Assembly (NCBI GenBank): GCA_018816245.1
Contig: JAHIVW010000004.1
Location: 1 to 64,000 of the forward strand
DNA: 64,000 nucleotides
Direction of reading: 5' to 3'
Source of the DNA: Nanobdellota archaeon
GTDB taxonomy: Archaea; Aenigmatarchaeota; Aenigmatarchaeia; QMZP01
Under the pieces are notes generated by a model. That model was not told the DNA's origin. It saw nothing but the letters and a program-made list of their open reading frames with translations, and made no database searches. Positions 8,018 to 16,482 of this stretch are shown here, piece after piece. Numbering within the stretch: position 1 is the first letter of the stretch; each line of letters opens with the position of its first letter. A program made the translations under genes and the position numbers.

Positions 8018-9035
8018 GATTCATTGTTATAAATGAATACGACGGTGGGCTGCCCCTTTAACCAAAGGACTGTCAGGTTTTCGGTGATCGTGAGCTGAAT
8101 GCCTCGTTGCCTTGGCACGTACACCCCGATTCCGTCAACCCGGTCGTCTACCGGACCTTCCGGCCCGCGCCGACTGTTGCCAGCCAGTCTGGGCCATGGG
8201 AGTCTCGTTTCTGGGGGGACTTCGCGCTTAGATGCGTTCAGCGCTTATTTCGTATGGCGTAGCTACTCGGCAGTGCATTACAACCGATACACCAGAGGCC
8301 ACGACGCCCTGTTCCTTTCGTACTGGAGGCATCTTCCCATCAGACTCCCGACACCCACAATAGATATAGACGGTACTGGCTCGCACCGTACTTAACCCAG
8401 CTAACGTGGCTCTTTAAACAGTGAACACCTGTACCCTTGGCTGCTGCTGCACAGCCAGGAAGAGCCGAGCCGACGGCGGAGAAGCAACGTATGAGGTCAA
8501 TACGAACTTTCACCCACCACGACTCCATTATCCCCGTGGTAGCTTTTCTGCCAGATCGGGCGCCCAATGAATGACGCACCGAGGATCGCTAGGCCGCGCT
8601 TTCGCGTTCGCGTTTCTCGTTGTTCGAAACACGATCAGGCCACCTTTTGCCCTTGCACTCGCCTCCCGATTTCTGACCGGGATGAGGTGACTTTGGGGCA
8701 CCTCCGATGTCCTGCCGGAGGTGTACCGCCCCAGCCAAACTGCCCATCTGAAGCTGTTTCCCGAAGGATAAGCAGCACAGAAACAGCCGGGTGGTGTTAC
8801 ATTGGCGCCTTCACAGCTCCTGACGAAGCTGCTGCATCGCTCCCACCTACGCTATTCGGCCATTTCAGTACCACAACAACAGACTGCAGTAAAGTTCAAC
8901 GGGGTCTTCTCGTCCCATTGCGGGTCTTCGGATTATGCACCGGACTCTTAAGTTCACAAGGTGCCAGCCTGGGACAGTAGGGATCTCGTTCATCCGTTCA
9001 TGCAGGTCGTTAATTAAACGACAAGAGATTACGCT

Positions 9036-9716
9036 CACATCTGTTACTTTGGAGGACCACGATCGCTCGTGGCGGACTGCCATTTCTGACAGCCTCCGCA
9101 CATCGCTGTGCGGGTCGGACTATATCATCACCCGCAGTCGGGTGTCTGGCGTGTAGTCTCTGAGGATTTTAGATACCGAGGCAGTGTTTTCGTGTTCATT
9201 TGTGCTGCCAGTTCTGCAATTGTTGTGATCCCAGATCTCGTCAGATGTTGGCGCTTGTTCATCAAATCAATGATTTCTGAGAACAGTTCAAAGTCATGCC
9301 GCTTCTTGGTTTGGAGCGGATGGGAATTGAAGAACGCAACGAGCTTGTTGCAGTTTTCCAGTCCCCGGACTCGGAACTCTTTTCGGTCGCCATGATTTGT
9401 CTTGATGCCTCCAAAACCGAAATACGATCGGATCCGGTGCAGAATTTGGACATCACGCTCATGCTGCACCACGCGAAACTCCGGGAGGACTTGCCATCCC
9501 AATGTCGCGGGGATCCGGTTGATTCCGACATGGAAGCACCCTTCGCCATCAACGAAACCTGAAATCCATTCGGCATCTAATCTTTCCTGCTGATTGTCCG
9601 CACCCATCACATTGTCACTGAAATCAGATCGGAAATACTCGGGGTTGATTTCGAGTAGTGTGGGATTCTCGGATATTCCAGCATATAGCCAGATTTTACT
9701 AAGGCAACAACTGTTC
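9036..9716 (-). other. Group I intron in 23S (CUUAAGGU|AGCG site) with LAGLIDADG ORF
   Basis: The 5' exon ends ...CTTAAGGT at 9717 and the 3' exon resumes AGCGTAAT at 9035, restoring the universal 23S text. Group I marks are present. The 5' exon AAGGU pairs with GCCUU in the intron and puts a U-G pair at the splice site (P1). The last intron base is G (9036). P7 strands are GACTA (9158-9154) and TAGTC (9122-9118). TGCGGACAATCAGCAGG (P4-P6 area) lies at about 9604-9588. Length is 681 nt. The 3' end carries three hairpins (P9 region). Confidence 0.88.
9128..9607 (-). CDS. LAGLIDADG homing endonuclease, single motif (I-CreI-like)
   Basis: From ATG 9607 (MGADNQQERLDAEWISGFVDGEGCF) the product is 159 residues. 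One LAGLIDADG motif, WISGFVDGEGCF near residues 14-25, implies a homodimer of the I-CreI type; the final acidic residues of the motif would bind the catalytic metals. A GTG farther upstream (9718) only extends into ribozyme and exon sequence and is rejected. The start overlaps the P4-P6 segment. The last codons overlap the P7-P3-P8 core, with the stop at 9130-9128 just before the P7 3' strand. It should cut intron-less 23S genes at the insertion site to spread the group I intron. Confidence 0.88.
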   Translation of the reverse strand: MGADNQQERLDAEWISGFVDGEGCFHVGINRIPATLGWQVLPEFRVVQHERDVQILHRIRSYFGFGGIKTNHGDRKEFRVRGLENCNKLVAFFNSHPLQTKKRHDFELFSEIIDLMNKRQHLTRSGITTIAELAAQMNTKTLPRYLKSSETTRQTPDCG

Positions 9717-10359
9717 ACCTTAAGACGGTCAGAGTATGCGGTTTGCAGGGCTTGATTGATTTCAAAAGCAATGCAATTCGTTTCTTCTTGTCCGGATGCT
9801 CTGGTTGAATGAGTTCAGAAAACTTCCGGATCCGGTTCACCGAATAAATGAAGAACCGGTATTCGGGTTTCTTGTTCACGGGCCGTGAAAGCGGCCCGCT
9901 CATGGCACTACATTCGATACCAAAACGTTCCAGAGCGTTTCTCACTTCTGTCAGAAGCTGATCAGATCCATTTTGATGGAACCCGATCTGGGGAGGGATC
10001 CTCCGCTTGCGCTGGCCGAGAAGATATTTCTCGACATGCGGGCAGGATCCTTCCGTATCCCAGAAGCCGCGAATGAATGCTATCTGCAATCGCGGTTCCG
10101 TGGGAAGCGTGTTCATGGTTTGCTCGAGCGTCTTATACAGTTTTTTGTTGCCGAACTTGAGATAGAAACAGGTTTTCCAGGGCCCACGAATTGGTGTTGT
10201 AATATCGAGTGATTCCAATCGCGGAAGAATGGACTTCTCAAGCCATTCTCTATTCTTCTGGTAAAACTGAATGTCATATCCCGTTCGCGTTGTTCGTTTG
10301 ACGAGACACCCGTCATGAACTGCTCCTGACAAATAAGCAAGATCTTCGGTGAGGTTCAT
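9715..10359 (-). CDS. LAGLIDADG homing endonuclease, two motifs (I-DmoI-like)
   Basis: From ATG 10359 (MNLTEDLAYLSGAVHDG), preceded by GGTG as a possible ribosome site, the product is 214 residues. Two LAGLIDADG motifs, LAYLSGAVHDGCL near residue 7 and IAFIRGFWDTEGSC near residue 94, make it a monomeric double-motif enzyme, as is usual for archaeal rRNA BHB introns. The reading frame does not stop inside its own intron. It runs through the 3' splice site and the 19-nt exon, and its TGA (9717-9715) is made of the last exon base plus the first two bases of the group I intron. Confidence 0.88.
   Translation of the reverse strand: MNLTEDLAYLSGAVHDGCLVKRTTRTGYDIQFYQKNREWLEKSILPRLESLDITTPIRGPWKTCFYLKFGNKKLYKTLEQTMNTLPTEPRLQIAFIRGFWDTEGSCPHVEKYLLGQRKRRIPPQIGFHQNGSDQLLTEVRNALERFGIECSAMSGPLSRPVNKKPEYRFFIYSVNRIRKFSELIQPEHPDKKKRIALLLKSIKPCKPHTLTVLR
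9717..9735 (-). other. 19-nt 23S exon between two introns
   Basis: On the minus strand the exon reads ACTCTGACCGTCTTAAGGT. It matches the helix 69-71 text of archaeal 23S (ACTATGACCCTCTTAAGGT). It is bounded by the BHB intron (9736-10457) upstream and the group I intron (9036-9716) downstream. Confidence 0.85.
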
Positions 10360-10457
10360 AATCACCTTTGATGAGCAGAGTGATTTAATCTTGCGGGAGG
10401 AGTGTGCCGGTTATGCCACAAGATAAATGTCTGCCCCGATGAAGAACCCACGCAAAT
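9736..10457 (-). other. Archaeal bulge-helix-bulge intron in 23S with LAGLIDADG ORF
   Basis: The junctions form a textbook hBHBh'. A 4-bp central helix GCGG (exon 1, 10463-10460) pairs with CCGC (intron end). The 3-nt bulges are TAA and ATA, and the inner helix is TTTG with CAAA. Cutting after the second base of each bulge gives mature GGCGGTA|ACTCTGACC, matching normal 23S. Length is 722 nt. Splicing would be by the tRNA endonuclease and RtcB ligase, not by the RNA itself. Confidence 0.88.
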
Positions 10458-12431
10458 TACCGCCGGCGTTTACCAGGGCTTCACCCAGTTGAAACCAGGC
10501 TTAACACACTGGCACTGGCCAGGACTCAGCGGCTATACGAGCCCTTTCGGGTTTGCAGCCACCTACGTTTTTGTTAAACAGTCGTATCCCTCGAGTCACT
10601 GCGACCTGCCCAGCCTCAATTGAATGAGGGGGGCAGGCATCCTTTATACCAAAGATACAGGACTAATTTGCCGAATTCCCTAGGCTGACGTTTCCTTACG
10701 CGCCTTTGCCTTCTCAGCAAGGGGCACCAGAGACGGATCTTGGTACGGACAAGAACAATCCATGCACGACCCATTTTCAGGGGATCCGGGAATTGCGCAA
10801 ATTCCTCACGAAACCACTCACACCTTCCCCCGGGTCTCACCATTACGGTGCTCACCGGGCTTCGATGCTTCGCCACCTCACGATGGTTGCGCTATCCAGA
10901 ACCGTCTGAGTCATGCCTTGCGTTGCCGCGTGTATGTTCTCGGTACAGGAATATTAACCTGTTTCCCTTTCCCGTGTTTCCTGTTAGGAACACAGTTAGG
11001 ACCGACTAACCCTCAGTCGATGATCGTTGCTGAGGAACCCTAGCCCTTTAGGCGGCGTCGATTCTCACGACGCTTCGCTGTTACTATCAGCAGGATTCTT
11101 ATCGCCACTGGATCCCGTTGCCCTTACGGACAGCGTTCGACTCCAGCGGCGCACCTCTCTACCTCATGCCTTTCGGCGAGTTGGGTATCGGTGACCAGTT
11201 TAGTCCCGTCCATTATCAGGACCGACAACCTCGGTGGGTAAGCTGTTACGCACTTTTTAAAGGGTGGCTGCTTCTAAGCCAACCTTCCCACTGTCTGAGG
11301 TTGCCGACACCTTTTCTCACTGAACTGGTACTTAGGGACCTTAACCCAACGCAGGTTTTTTTACCCTTCGGAAAACGAGCTTACCCCGTTCCCGCACTCC
11401 CGCTTTCTTCGACGGACACAGATTCGGAGTTTGACAAAGTAACTGGATCTTTCGATCCTTGGTTGCCTGATCAGTATCTCTACCCCGTATCCAGTCTCCA
11501 GCGAGGCTGAGCTAACGCACATTTCGAGAGGAACCAGCTATTACCGGACTCGATTGGCTTTTTACCCCTAGCCCCAGGTGACCCGAATGATTTGAATCTC
11601 AATATCGGTAGCGAGCCTCCATCCCCCTTTCGAAGGATTTCACTCTCCCAAGGGCTAGATCGACCGGTTTCGGGTATGGCACCCGTGACTTGCCGCACGT
11701 GAGTACGGACCTGCCTCGCAAGCTGCGCAGGCTTCGCTTTCGCTTCGGCTTCTGTTCTTAACCTCGCCACGGACACCAACTCCCTGCCGCGTGTTTCAAA
11801 ACGGACGTACGGATCCGGAACATTGCTATTCGTAAAACTTCATAGCAACTTACACAGACCCGTACCACCTATGACGCACTGGTTTGAGGATTTTTTCATT
11901 GCCTGATAAGGCTACTTTTCAGCTTTCCCTCGCGGTACTCGTTCACTATCGGACTCAACAGATATTTAGCATTGGGAGTTCTTGCCTCCCGCATTCCGGC
12001 AGAATTTCCAACCTGCCGTACTCTGGATCCTGGGTAGCACCTGTCTTTCCTTCGCATACGAGGCTTTCACTCTCTTTGGCAGTCTTTTCCAAAACACTTC
12101 TGCTCAGAAAGCGAAGGTGAACCCCAGTCCAAACCCCACATCCCTATTATATTTCTATAACAGGTTCGGTTTGTGCTCTTCCCTTTTCGATCGCCTTTAC
12201 TCAGGGAATCACGATTGTTTTCTTCTCCTGCGGGTACTAAGATGTTTCAATTCCCCGCGTCCCTCATCCCATATGGGATCTGTGCTACATGCACACAGAG
12301 GTCTGATTCGGGAATCCCAGGTTCGAAGCCCGCATGCGGCTCCCCTGGGCATATCGCAGCTTGCCACGCCCTTCATCAGTTGTCGAGCCAAGCCATCCAC
12401 CAGTACGCGTAAACGTCCTATGCTTAGAGTC

Positions 12432-12797: not shown

Positions 12798-13072
12798 CAT
12801 GTTGTTCCCTATATCGCTATAAGGCATGGACTATATCACCATCCTGCATCAAATGCAGGAGCCCGGCGTGTAGTCTCTGAGGGGTCCGTACCACGACGCA
12901 GGTGTTGCCTGCGTCCAATGACGGACTTCCCTGCTGATTGTCCGCACCTGCACATTGTCACCGAGATCAGATATACTCAGGGTTGATCTCTGGTAGTGCA
13001 GGATACTCGGAGTTTCCAGCATATAGCCAGGTTTTTCCTGTAACCTTACGGTTTCAGGGTCGCAACTCGTTT
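12798..13072 (-). other. Group I intron in 16S, no ORF, inside the 1492 primer site
   Basis: The 5' exon AAGTCGT ends at 13073 and the 3' exon AACAAGG starts at 12797, rejoining the universal AAGTCGTAACAAGG. P1 is exon GUCGU with intron GCGAC, giving a U-G pair at the cut. The last intron base is G. P7 strands are GACTA (12875-12871) and TAGTC (12833-12829). Only 275 nt long, with no reading frame. Two blocks (about 12929-13043 and 12820-12885) are nearly the same as the matching blocks of the 23S group I intron. Confidence 0.88.
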
Positions 13073-14952: not shown

Positions 14953-15696
14953 GTGTCCACAACAACACCCTGGCTGCGGGACGGCATGATCCTGCTGCTG
15001 ACTTCTGAAGGCCCAGGGATGTACATTGACCTCGATCCCATGACCGGGTACCGGGGTCTCCGTGACTACCTTCTGGCGGCAGAGGATGGAGGGAAGCGGC
15101 TCCTGACTTCAAGTGAATGGATGAAGGCAGCGAACCATCGGCTCTACTCGTCGGTTCCGGGAAGCGAGTATTTTGCCTTGCTCACCAACGAGGTGCACCT
15201 CGAGGATCGGTTGCTGTGGCGAGGGAGCGACACCGTCCCCGGGGAAGCCACGGCAAGCGTGGTGACAAGGCGCTGTCATTTTGCGGACAGCGTGACATCG
15301 GTGATGCTGGATGACCAAGGACTGGTTCGTGATGAATACTTCCACCAGCTGGCGTATACCCCGCACCGGGGAGAAATTGCCAGCATTGATTCGACGACCG
15401 GGCTGGCACCGTTCGTTGTGACAAACGGAAGGCGATATGATGATGTTATTGGAGAAGAACCAACACATATCTTCTTCCATGCACAACAGCGATCCCCCTA
15501 CGGGTTTCATGAAGAACCAACAGACAAGCAACATGTCGTTGTTCGTGGACGTCATTCACATGGCGGAGATCTTGAGCGCGCCGGACCTTGGCAAATCGAT
15601 TTTATCGATCCAAGATCAGTTCAGGTCGCGCGCGCCTGCCGGGATGAGACGCCCGAGGAATACCAGGAACGGCTTGCCTGGATGGCGAAACAGTAG
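14953..15696 (+). CDS. Hypothetical soluble protein
   Basis: A 247-residue protein from GTG 14953; a TATA-like TATTTTAACC at 14921 predicts transcription starting next to this GTG, so a leaderless start is plausible. ATG 14986 (MILLLTSEGPGMYIDLDP) is the alternative. It is rich in acidic and aromatic residues, with several H-rich stretches (HIFFHAQQRSPYGFH near 175-190 and VVVRGRHSHGGD near 197-208). There is no signal peptide, membrane helix or known motif. Function unknown. Confidence 0.6.
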   Translation: MSTTTPWLRDGMILLLTSEGPGMYIDLDPMTGYRGLRDYLLAAEDGGKRLLTSSEWMKAANHRLYSSVPGSEYFALLTNEVHLEDRLLWRGSDTVPGEATASVVTRRCHFADSVTSVMLDDQGLVRDEYFHQLAYTPHRGEIASIDSTTGLAPFVVTNGRRYDDVIGEEPTHIFFHAQQRSPYGFHEEPTDKQHVVVRGRHSHGGDLERAGPWQIDFIDPRSVQVARACRDETPEEYQERLAWMAKQ

Positions 15697-16482
15697 CTAC
15701 TGCAAAAATGCGAACGGCACCGTCACTTCGACATAGCCGCCAAGGATGACCAGAAGCACGGCTGCGGCGAACAGCAAACTAAAGTCCCGGTAGATCAGGC
15801 TTTTGTAGCGTTTGGTGAGCGGCTTGCTCAGGATCGATCCGGCAACAGCAGCCAAAAGATAGGCAAGGATTTCCAGAATGGTGTGGGGTAGGTACAGCCA
15901 TGGGTAGGCAAACAAGGGGATCCCGCCCCAGATGAAGGCGTTCAGGATGCTTCCGTACACGATCCCGGCGATGCTGGCGTTGTAGTTCAGAACAAAGATC
16001 GAGCCGGTCCCGTACACAAAAGAAAGCAGGATGAGGACAACGATGATGGTCAGGTTGTTGGAGATGATCTGGTAGAAGAGCGACCAGTTCGTGGCAAACG
16101 CGCCGGCAACACTTGACGCAAGGGGGGCGCCGATGATGTCCAGCTGGCTCTTGAACGCGATTTGTAGGGTTTTCGGGTTCAACACCCCGAACAGGATTGT
16201 ATATGCAAAGGCCATACCGAAGAACAGGAACGAGTAGAACTTCACGGCACCGTTCTCCTTGCTGAAGACGCTGCGGTAACGCGATTTCTCCAGGTTCAGG
16301 ATCTTCATGGCATAGGGAACCATGAGCATGGACGACAGTCCTATCATGGCAACGCTCATCCCGGTGACAAAGATCAGAAACGAGGTGATGAAACCGACGA
16401 GAACAAAGATGAACCCTATGAACATGGCAACATCCGGTTGGTTCTTCAATTGGGTTGCCGCGATCATCCGTTCCAGAACCAT
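15697..16482 (-). CDS. SpoIIM/DUF95-family membrane protein
   Basis: This 261-residue integral membrane protein has about six hydrophobic helices. It shows the SpoIIM (stage II sporulation M, DUF95) pattern: an N-x-x-I/T helix start (NNLTIIVVLILLSFVYGTGSIFVLNYNASIAGIVYGSIL) and a long C-terminal helix pair. Despite the name the family is common in archaea, where its role is unknown, perhaps membrane remodelling or transport. It is divergent from psmA, with start codons 75 nt apart. Confidence 0.7.
   Translation of the reverse strand: MVLERMIAATQLKNQPDVAMFIGFIFVLVGFITSFLIFVTGMSVAMIGLSSMLMVPYAMKILNLEKSRYRSVFSKENGAVKFYSFLFFGMAFAYTILFGVLNPKTLQIAFKSQLDIIGAPLASSVAGAFATNWSLFYQIISNNLTIIVVLILLSFVYGTGSIFVLNYNASIAGIVYGSILNAFIWGGIPLFAYPWLYLPHTILEILAYLLAAVAGSILSKPLTKRYKSLIYRDFSLLFAAAVLLVILGGYVEVTVPFAFLQ

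Follow-up and report, generated by a model that had tools for sequence, protein, structure and literature searches.

Predicted introns of two classes on either side of a 19-nt exon in an archaeal 23S rRNA gene

Group I introns have been reported from archaeal rRNA genes at LSU1931, LSU1923 and SSU1498, some with LAGLIDADG genes (Nawrocki, Jones, Eddy 2018, PMC6125680), and a preliminary description of the locus presented here was right in saying that such introns are known, since LSU1931 and SSU1498 are both published sites. BHB and group I introns in one gene are likewise published (PMC6125680), as are pairs of group I introns around tiny exons in this region of the 23S rRNA (PMC6125680 Table 1; PMC1995217). 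The window, by which we mean the whole 64,000-nt stretch of DNA analysed, from a Nanobdellota archaeon, agrees with that archaeal survey in the LSU1931 and SSU1498 sites, the size range and the LAGLIDADG gene inside, as well as in host, the published hosts being mostly DPANN archaea. It differs in that the text and Table 1 of the survey describe no BHB/group I pair around so short an exon.

Two further systems invite comparison. The I-DmoI-type BHB rRNA introns of Desulfurococcus mobilis share with the window's intron the BHB core and a two-motif LAGLIDADG open reading frame (ORF), the latter as a weak match, whereas the window has its intron at LSU1912, a relaxed outer helix and a frame ending in the neighbouring group I intron. 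In Synechococcus C9 (L1917/L1931, PMC1995217) and Coxiella (PMC10136302), two introns also bracket a very short exon in the same part of the 23S rRNA, and these tandem bacterial introns have a single-motif LAGLIDADG gene at L1931, as the window does. Both members of the bacterial pairs are group I introns, however, and because of this their machineries can cross-react, leading to exon skipping; the two classes in the window are chemically unrelated, and by this comparison a mixed-class pair may be spared the exon skipping that occurs with two group I introns.

The rRNA operon of the window lies on the minus strand in the order 16S-tRNA-Ala-23S, within an incomplete source assembly of 886 kb in six contigs. 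It was compared with 156 genomes of the phylum, all from a single class. With the spliced gene aligned to E. coli 23S rRNA, the layout is as follows:

8061–12424, minus strand: 23S rRNA gene, introns included (RF02540, 2356 bits, model positions 1–2987 of 2987)
9736–10457, minus strand: BHB intron, 722 nt, after LSU A1912 (E. coli 23S alignment; core common to seven relatives with an intron at the same site)
9717–9735, minus strand: 19-nt micro-exon ACTCTGACCGTCTTAAGGT, LSU A1913–U1931, from the 3' part of helix 69 to helix 71 (alignment to E. coli 23S)
9036–9716, minus strand: group I intron, 681 nt, after LSU U1931, with its terminal G at 9036 (RF00028 match; covariation alignment)

The BHB intron thus interrupts the gene at LSU 1912/1913 and the group I intron at LSU 1931/1932. 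The two insertions, their exact junctions and the tiny exon shared between them had been proposed in the preliminary description, and all three hold in this alignment. Once doubly spliced, the window's 23S rRNA has the sequence of intronless relatives, which read straight through the region. The locus very probably represents two independent homing introns in neighbouring sites of an insertion hot spot in 23S helices 69–71.

The pairings that define the BHB intron, and the gene it carries, are:

10460–10463, minus strand: central helix, 5' exon strand GCGG (LSU 1907–1910)
9738–9741, minus strand: central helix, intron strand CCGC, with the 3' cut after AU at 9736/9735
10452–10456, minus strand: inner helix, 5' strand UUUGC, pairing with GCAAA at 9742–9746
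9742–9746, minus strand: inner helix, 3' strand GCAAA
9715–10365, minus strand: two-motif LAGLIDADG ORF, likely start ATG 10359 (PF14528, LAGLIDADG_3, 41 bits)

The predicted cut sites lie within 3-nt bulges, UA|A and AU|A. A fully paired register like this one arose in 38 of 200,000 random draws, and seven other genomes of the phylum have BHB introns at precisely this position, LSU1912 (34 to 328 nt). Counting the window, the 4-bp central helix is intact in all eight introns (GCGG paired with either CCGC or CCGU), and one more intron, in G139, sits one base upstream (LSU1911) with a GGCG/CGCC central helix of its own. Across these nine introns, in a common register, the inner helix pairs at 46 of 54 positions (shuffled partners scored as high in 0 of 5000 trials), and UUUGC/GCAAA covaries among the relatives. 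The complete 4-bp and inner helices with 3-nt bulges reported in the preliminary description are therefore present and recur in relatives, with one correction: the outer (exon) helix is poor, consisting of a G1906-C1914 pair followed by mismatches. Lacking a regular outer exon helix, the motif is filed as a relaxed rather than a strict hBHBh' form. Relaxed motifs, which need no outer helix, are reportedly recognised by the ARMAN-2 epsilon2 enzyme (PMC12397907).

Among the LSU1912 BHB introns only the window's copy has room for its LAGLIDADG gene (216 aa). The frame reads on through the 3' splice site and the micro-exon to a UGA stop codon, whose U is U1931 and whose GA is the start of the group I intron; in a circularised BHB intron the frame would instead pass beyond the intron end and continue for another 31 residues. 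I-DmoI is known in two forms, which come from precursor RNA and circular intron RNA. The window's ORF matches I-DmoI weakly (E 0.04), with both catalytic acidic positions aligned, and its other relatives are distant (30–33% identity). The nearest homologues of known position, at the same identity (L003/L004), are encoded just 3' of the 23S rRNA gene in G008 and G031 and not at LSU1912.

The group I intron was examined in an alignment of nine introns (the window's LSU1931 intron, seven other LSU1931 introns and the window's own 16S intron at SSU1498) against a hand-written P1–P9 structure. Its features, together with those of the 16S intron, are:

9699–9705, minus strand: internal guide GCCUUAG, forming P1 with exon UUAAGGU (9717–9723), U.G at the splice site (covariation alignment)
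9688–9693, minus strand: P3 5' strand UCUGGC, 3' strand at 9145–9150 (covariation alignment)
9154–9158, minus strand: P7 5' strand GACUA, 3' strand UAGUC at 9118–9122 (covariation alignment; A-U to G-C double change in two relatives)
9128–9610, minus strand: single-motif LAGLIDADG ORF inside P6, running into P7/P3 (PF00961, LAGLIDADG_1, 83 bits)
12798–13072, minus strand: second group I intron of the same kind, lacking a homing gene, in the 16S rRNA after U1498 (SSU1498; RF00028, 70 bits)

An Rfam search, the check proposed in the preliminary description, located the group I core of the LSU1931 intron with RF00028 (39.6 bits, E 1.5e-8), although below the curated cut-off of 50 bits; the score falls short because the homing gene splits P6. 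Whole-intron minimum-free-energy folds showed neither the BHB core nor the full group I core. As coding insertions dominate such folds, comparative pairing was used instead. In the nine-intron alignment 98.5% of 333 cells are paired and 13 pairs are doubly changed, a result equalled in 0 of 500 shuffles, and sliding the pairing partners lowers pairing to 35–43%. P3–P7 are paired at 97–100% of cells, with double changes in P3, P4, P5, P6, P7 and P9. The UUAAGGU/GCCUUAG P1 with its splice-site U.G is found in all LSU1931 introns, and the terminal G followed by the 3' exon AGCG in all nine aligned introns. Assignment to group I, first made from the P1 U-G pair, the terminal G and P7, is borne out by this covariation with eight other introns.

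Each intron carries a LAGLIDADG gene of matching type, as had been supposed; Pfam assigns LAGLIDADG_3 to the BHB ORF and LAGLIDADG_1 to the group I ORF. For the latter, GTG 9718 is not the likely start: since the homologous intron in G029 has no open frame upstream, the start most likely lies near 9605–9610. Translational coupling through a 4-nt GUGA overlap between the BHB ORF stop and the group I GTG was also considered, and is rejected on account of the same closed frame. Compared with its G029 homologue (67% identity, dN 0.26, dS 1.5), the group I homing gene is, on these sequences, under purifying selection. Within the phylum, the nearest relative of the SSU1498 intron is the LSU1931 intron of its own genome (82% over 116 nt), closer than other LSU introns, which suggests that the group I intron spread between rRNA genes within the lineage.

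In the reading we favour, two mobile introns would have homed independently into adjoining sites in 23S helices 69–71, each by means of its own LAGLIDADG endonuclease. By analogy with their families, the splicing endonuclease would cut both 3-nt bulges of the BHB intron and RtcB would ligate the exons, while the group I ribozyme would splice itself using P1 on LSU 1925–1931 and the terminal G, so that the mature rRNA would obtain a normal helix 69. Both introns are predicted from sequence to be spliced, and the BHB homing endonuclease, whose relatives are only distant, may be active.

Each intron also occurs separately. The 1912 BHB intron is found in the absence of the 1931 intron in four genomes (G004, G007, G009, G016) and the 1931 group I intron in the absence of the 1912 intron in two (G029, G031). 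In G112 and G113, sister species of one genus, both have a BHB intron at 1917 and only G113 has the group I intron. A survey of the 75 genomes of the phylum with readable sequence, in which intron classes were assigned partly by hand, placed BHB introns at 1911/1912, 1917, 1928, 1937 and 1955 and group I introns at 1923 and 1931. Both classes were present in five of the 75 (the window, G113, G114, G117 and G129) against 4.7 expected if they were independent (Fisher P = 1).

The tight pairing had been called striking, but it is not unique, as the same phylum holds group I/BHB exons that are shorter still. A 14-nt exon separates the LSU1931 group I intron from a BHB intron in G113 and G129, and in G114 (L116) only a 6-nt exon, AGCGTA, lies between the LSU1931 group I intron and a 44-nt BHB intron downstream of it. 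The AGCG that opens the group I 3' exon also forms one strand of the central helix of this BHB intron; its register was taken from the near-identical intron of G041, the automatic junction being one base off. As the relatives show, mixed pairings recur through the independent insertion of many introns into this region. Introns at both 1912 and 1931 were also sought among 84,980 species. Only two bacterial records came back, both judged chance matches, and the result is a lower bound, since the search pattern requires a base other than A at each end of the intron and may miss the window's own genome; viral contigs scanned for the same two positions gave none. Second, divergent 23S rRNA genes with a group I intron were seen in G031 (L078, contig C42, at 1931) and G094 (L061, contig C93, at 1923), in both cases on another contig of an assembly that also has a different 23S rRNA gene; the second copy is possibly contamination or a true second operon.

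Whether one intron must leave first, the micro-exon being shared, was raised in the preliminary description, according to which the order of removal may matter. A coupled, ordered splicing unit of this kind has in its favour the length of the micro-exon, only 19 nt, the competition of helix 69 (1906–1911 with 1919–1924) with the BHB central helix, and the 6-nt exon of G114, where the BHB central helix is built on AGCG of the group I 3' exon. In the window, however, P1 occupies LSU 1925–1931 and the BHB core 1907–1914, so that the two do not overlap, and a model RNA with both enforced folds at −31.2 kcal/mol against −32.4 kcal/mol unconstrained, within 1.2 kcal/mol. As the 19-nt exon keeps the BHB core and P1 apart, both splicing reactions could run in either order, and on this model pairing offers no reason for a forced order of removal in the window. 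Since each intron is also found alone with the same boundaries and co-occurrence equals the independent expectation, we regard an ordered unit as very unlikely. Interference between the two introns would be put to a sharper test by G114 than by the window.

The two remaining explanations concern the micro-exon and the insertions themselves. In Coxiella 23S rRNA a 34-nt exon flanked by two group I introns is reported to be skipped (PMC10136302), which offers a precedent for reading 9036–10457 as a single composite intron, or for skipping of 1913–1931, with the micro-exon lost from the mature rRNA. The micro-exon here is nevertheless identical to conserved sequence in intronless relatives and carries the helix 69 loop and 3' strand, and the introns belong to different classes with incompatible machineries, making its loss extremely improbable. 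That one or both insertions are unspliced and fragmenting, or an artefact of assembly, might be argued from the incomplete assembly and from splicing being read here off the sequence alone; yet each core is complete and shows covariation with relatives, purifying selection appears to act on the group I homing gene, and each insertion recurs at the same site in independent assemblies, so this too has only a minute chance of being correct. Two independently homed, separately spliced introns remain the preferred reading.

The splicing enzymes of the host speak partly for this reading and partly, like the poor outer helix of the BHB motif, against it. RtcB is encoded in the window's genome. The only tRNA-splicing endonuclease (EndA) homologue found in the assembly (L057, G000 contig C3, about 15523–15948) is alpha-like and keeps Tyr and His, with Ala at the catalytic Lys position (K156 of M. 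jannaschii), a change shared by paralogues in eight relatives. Relatives additionally carry an epsilon2 (ARMAN-type) enzyme with the catalytic Lys, and the splicing endonuclease of relatives aligns along its whole length with the ARMAN-2 enzyme 4fz2, whose structure is solved (E 1.8e-99); by this match the host would most likely be a micrarchaeote. The epsilon2-type endonuclease of the relatives was not found in the window's 886-kb assembly: either the assembly has missed its gene or splicing works differently in the lineage. It is highly unlikely that intron removal is mechanistically coupled around the micro-exon with the BHB cut by an EndA form lacking the catalytic lysine; if true, such lysine-less cutting would amount to a new chemistry of splicing or an arrangement of subunits not seen before.

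Within the open-licence literature searched, three findings are new: a pair of introns of different classes about a 19-nt exon, the repetition of such pairs with 14- and 6-nt exons, and the count placing BHB/group I co-occurrence at chance level. So is the recurrent LSU1912 BHB site, for which subscription journals may hold earlier reports. The 19-, 14- and 6-nt exons are natural constructs for studying how a protein-spliced and a self-spliced intron share a tiny exon during ribosome assembly, and sister species with one intron but not the other provide the controls. Close spacing is also seen within one class: in G050 (L036) and G007 (L042), BHB introns at LSU 1912, 1928 and 1937 divide a 23S rRNA stretch of about 25 nt into two exons, one about 16 nt long and the other about 9 nt.
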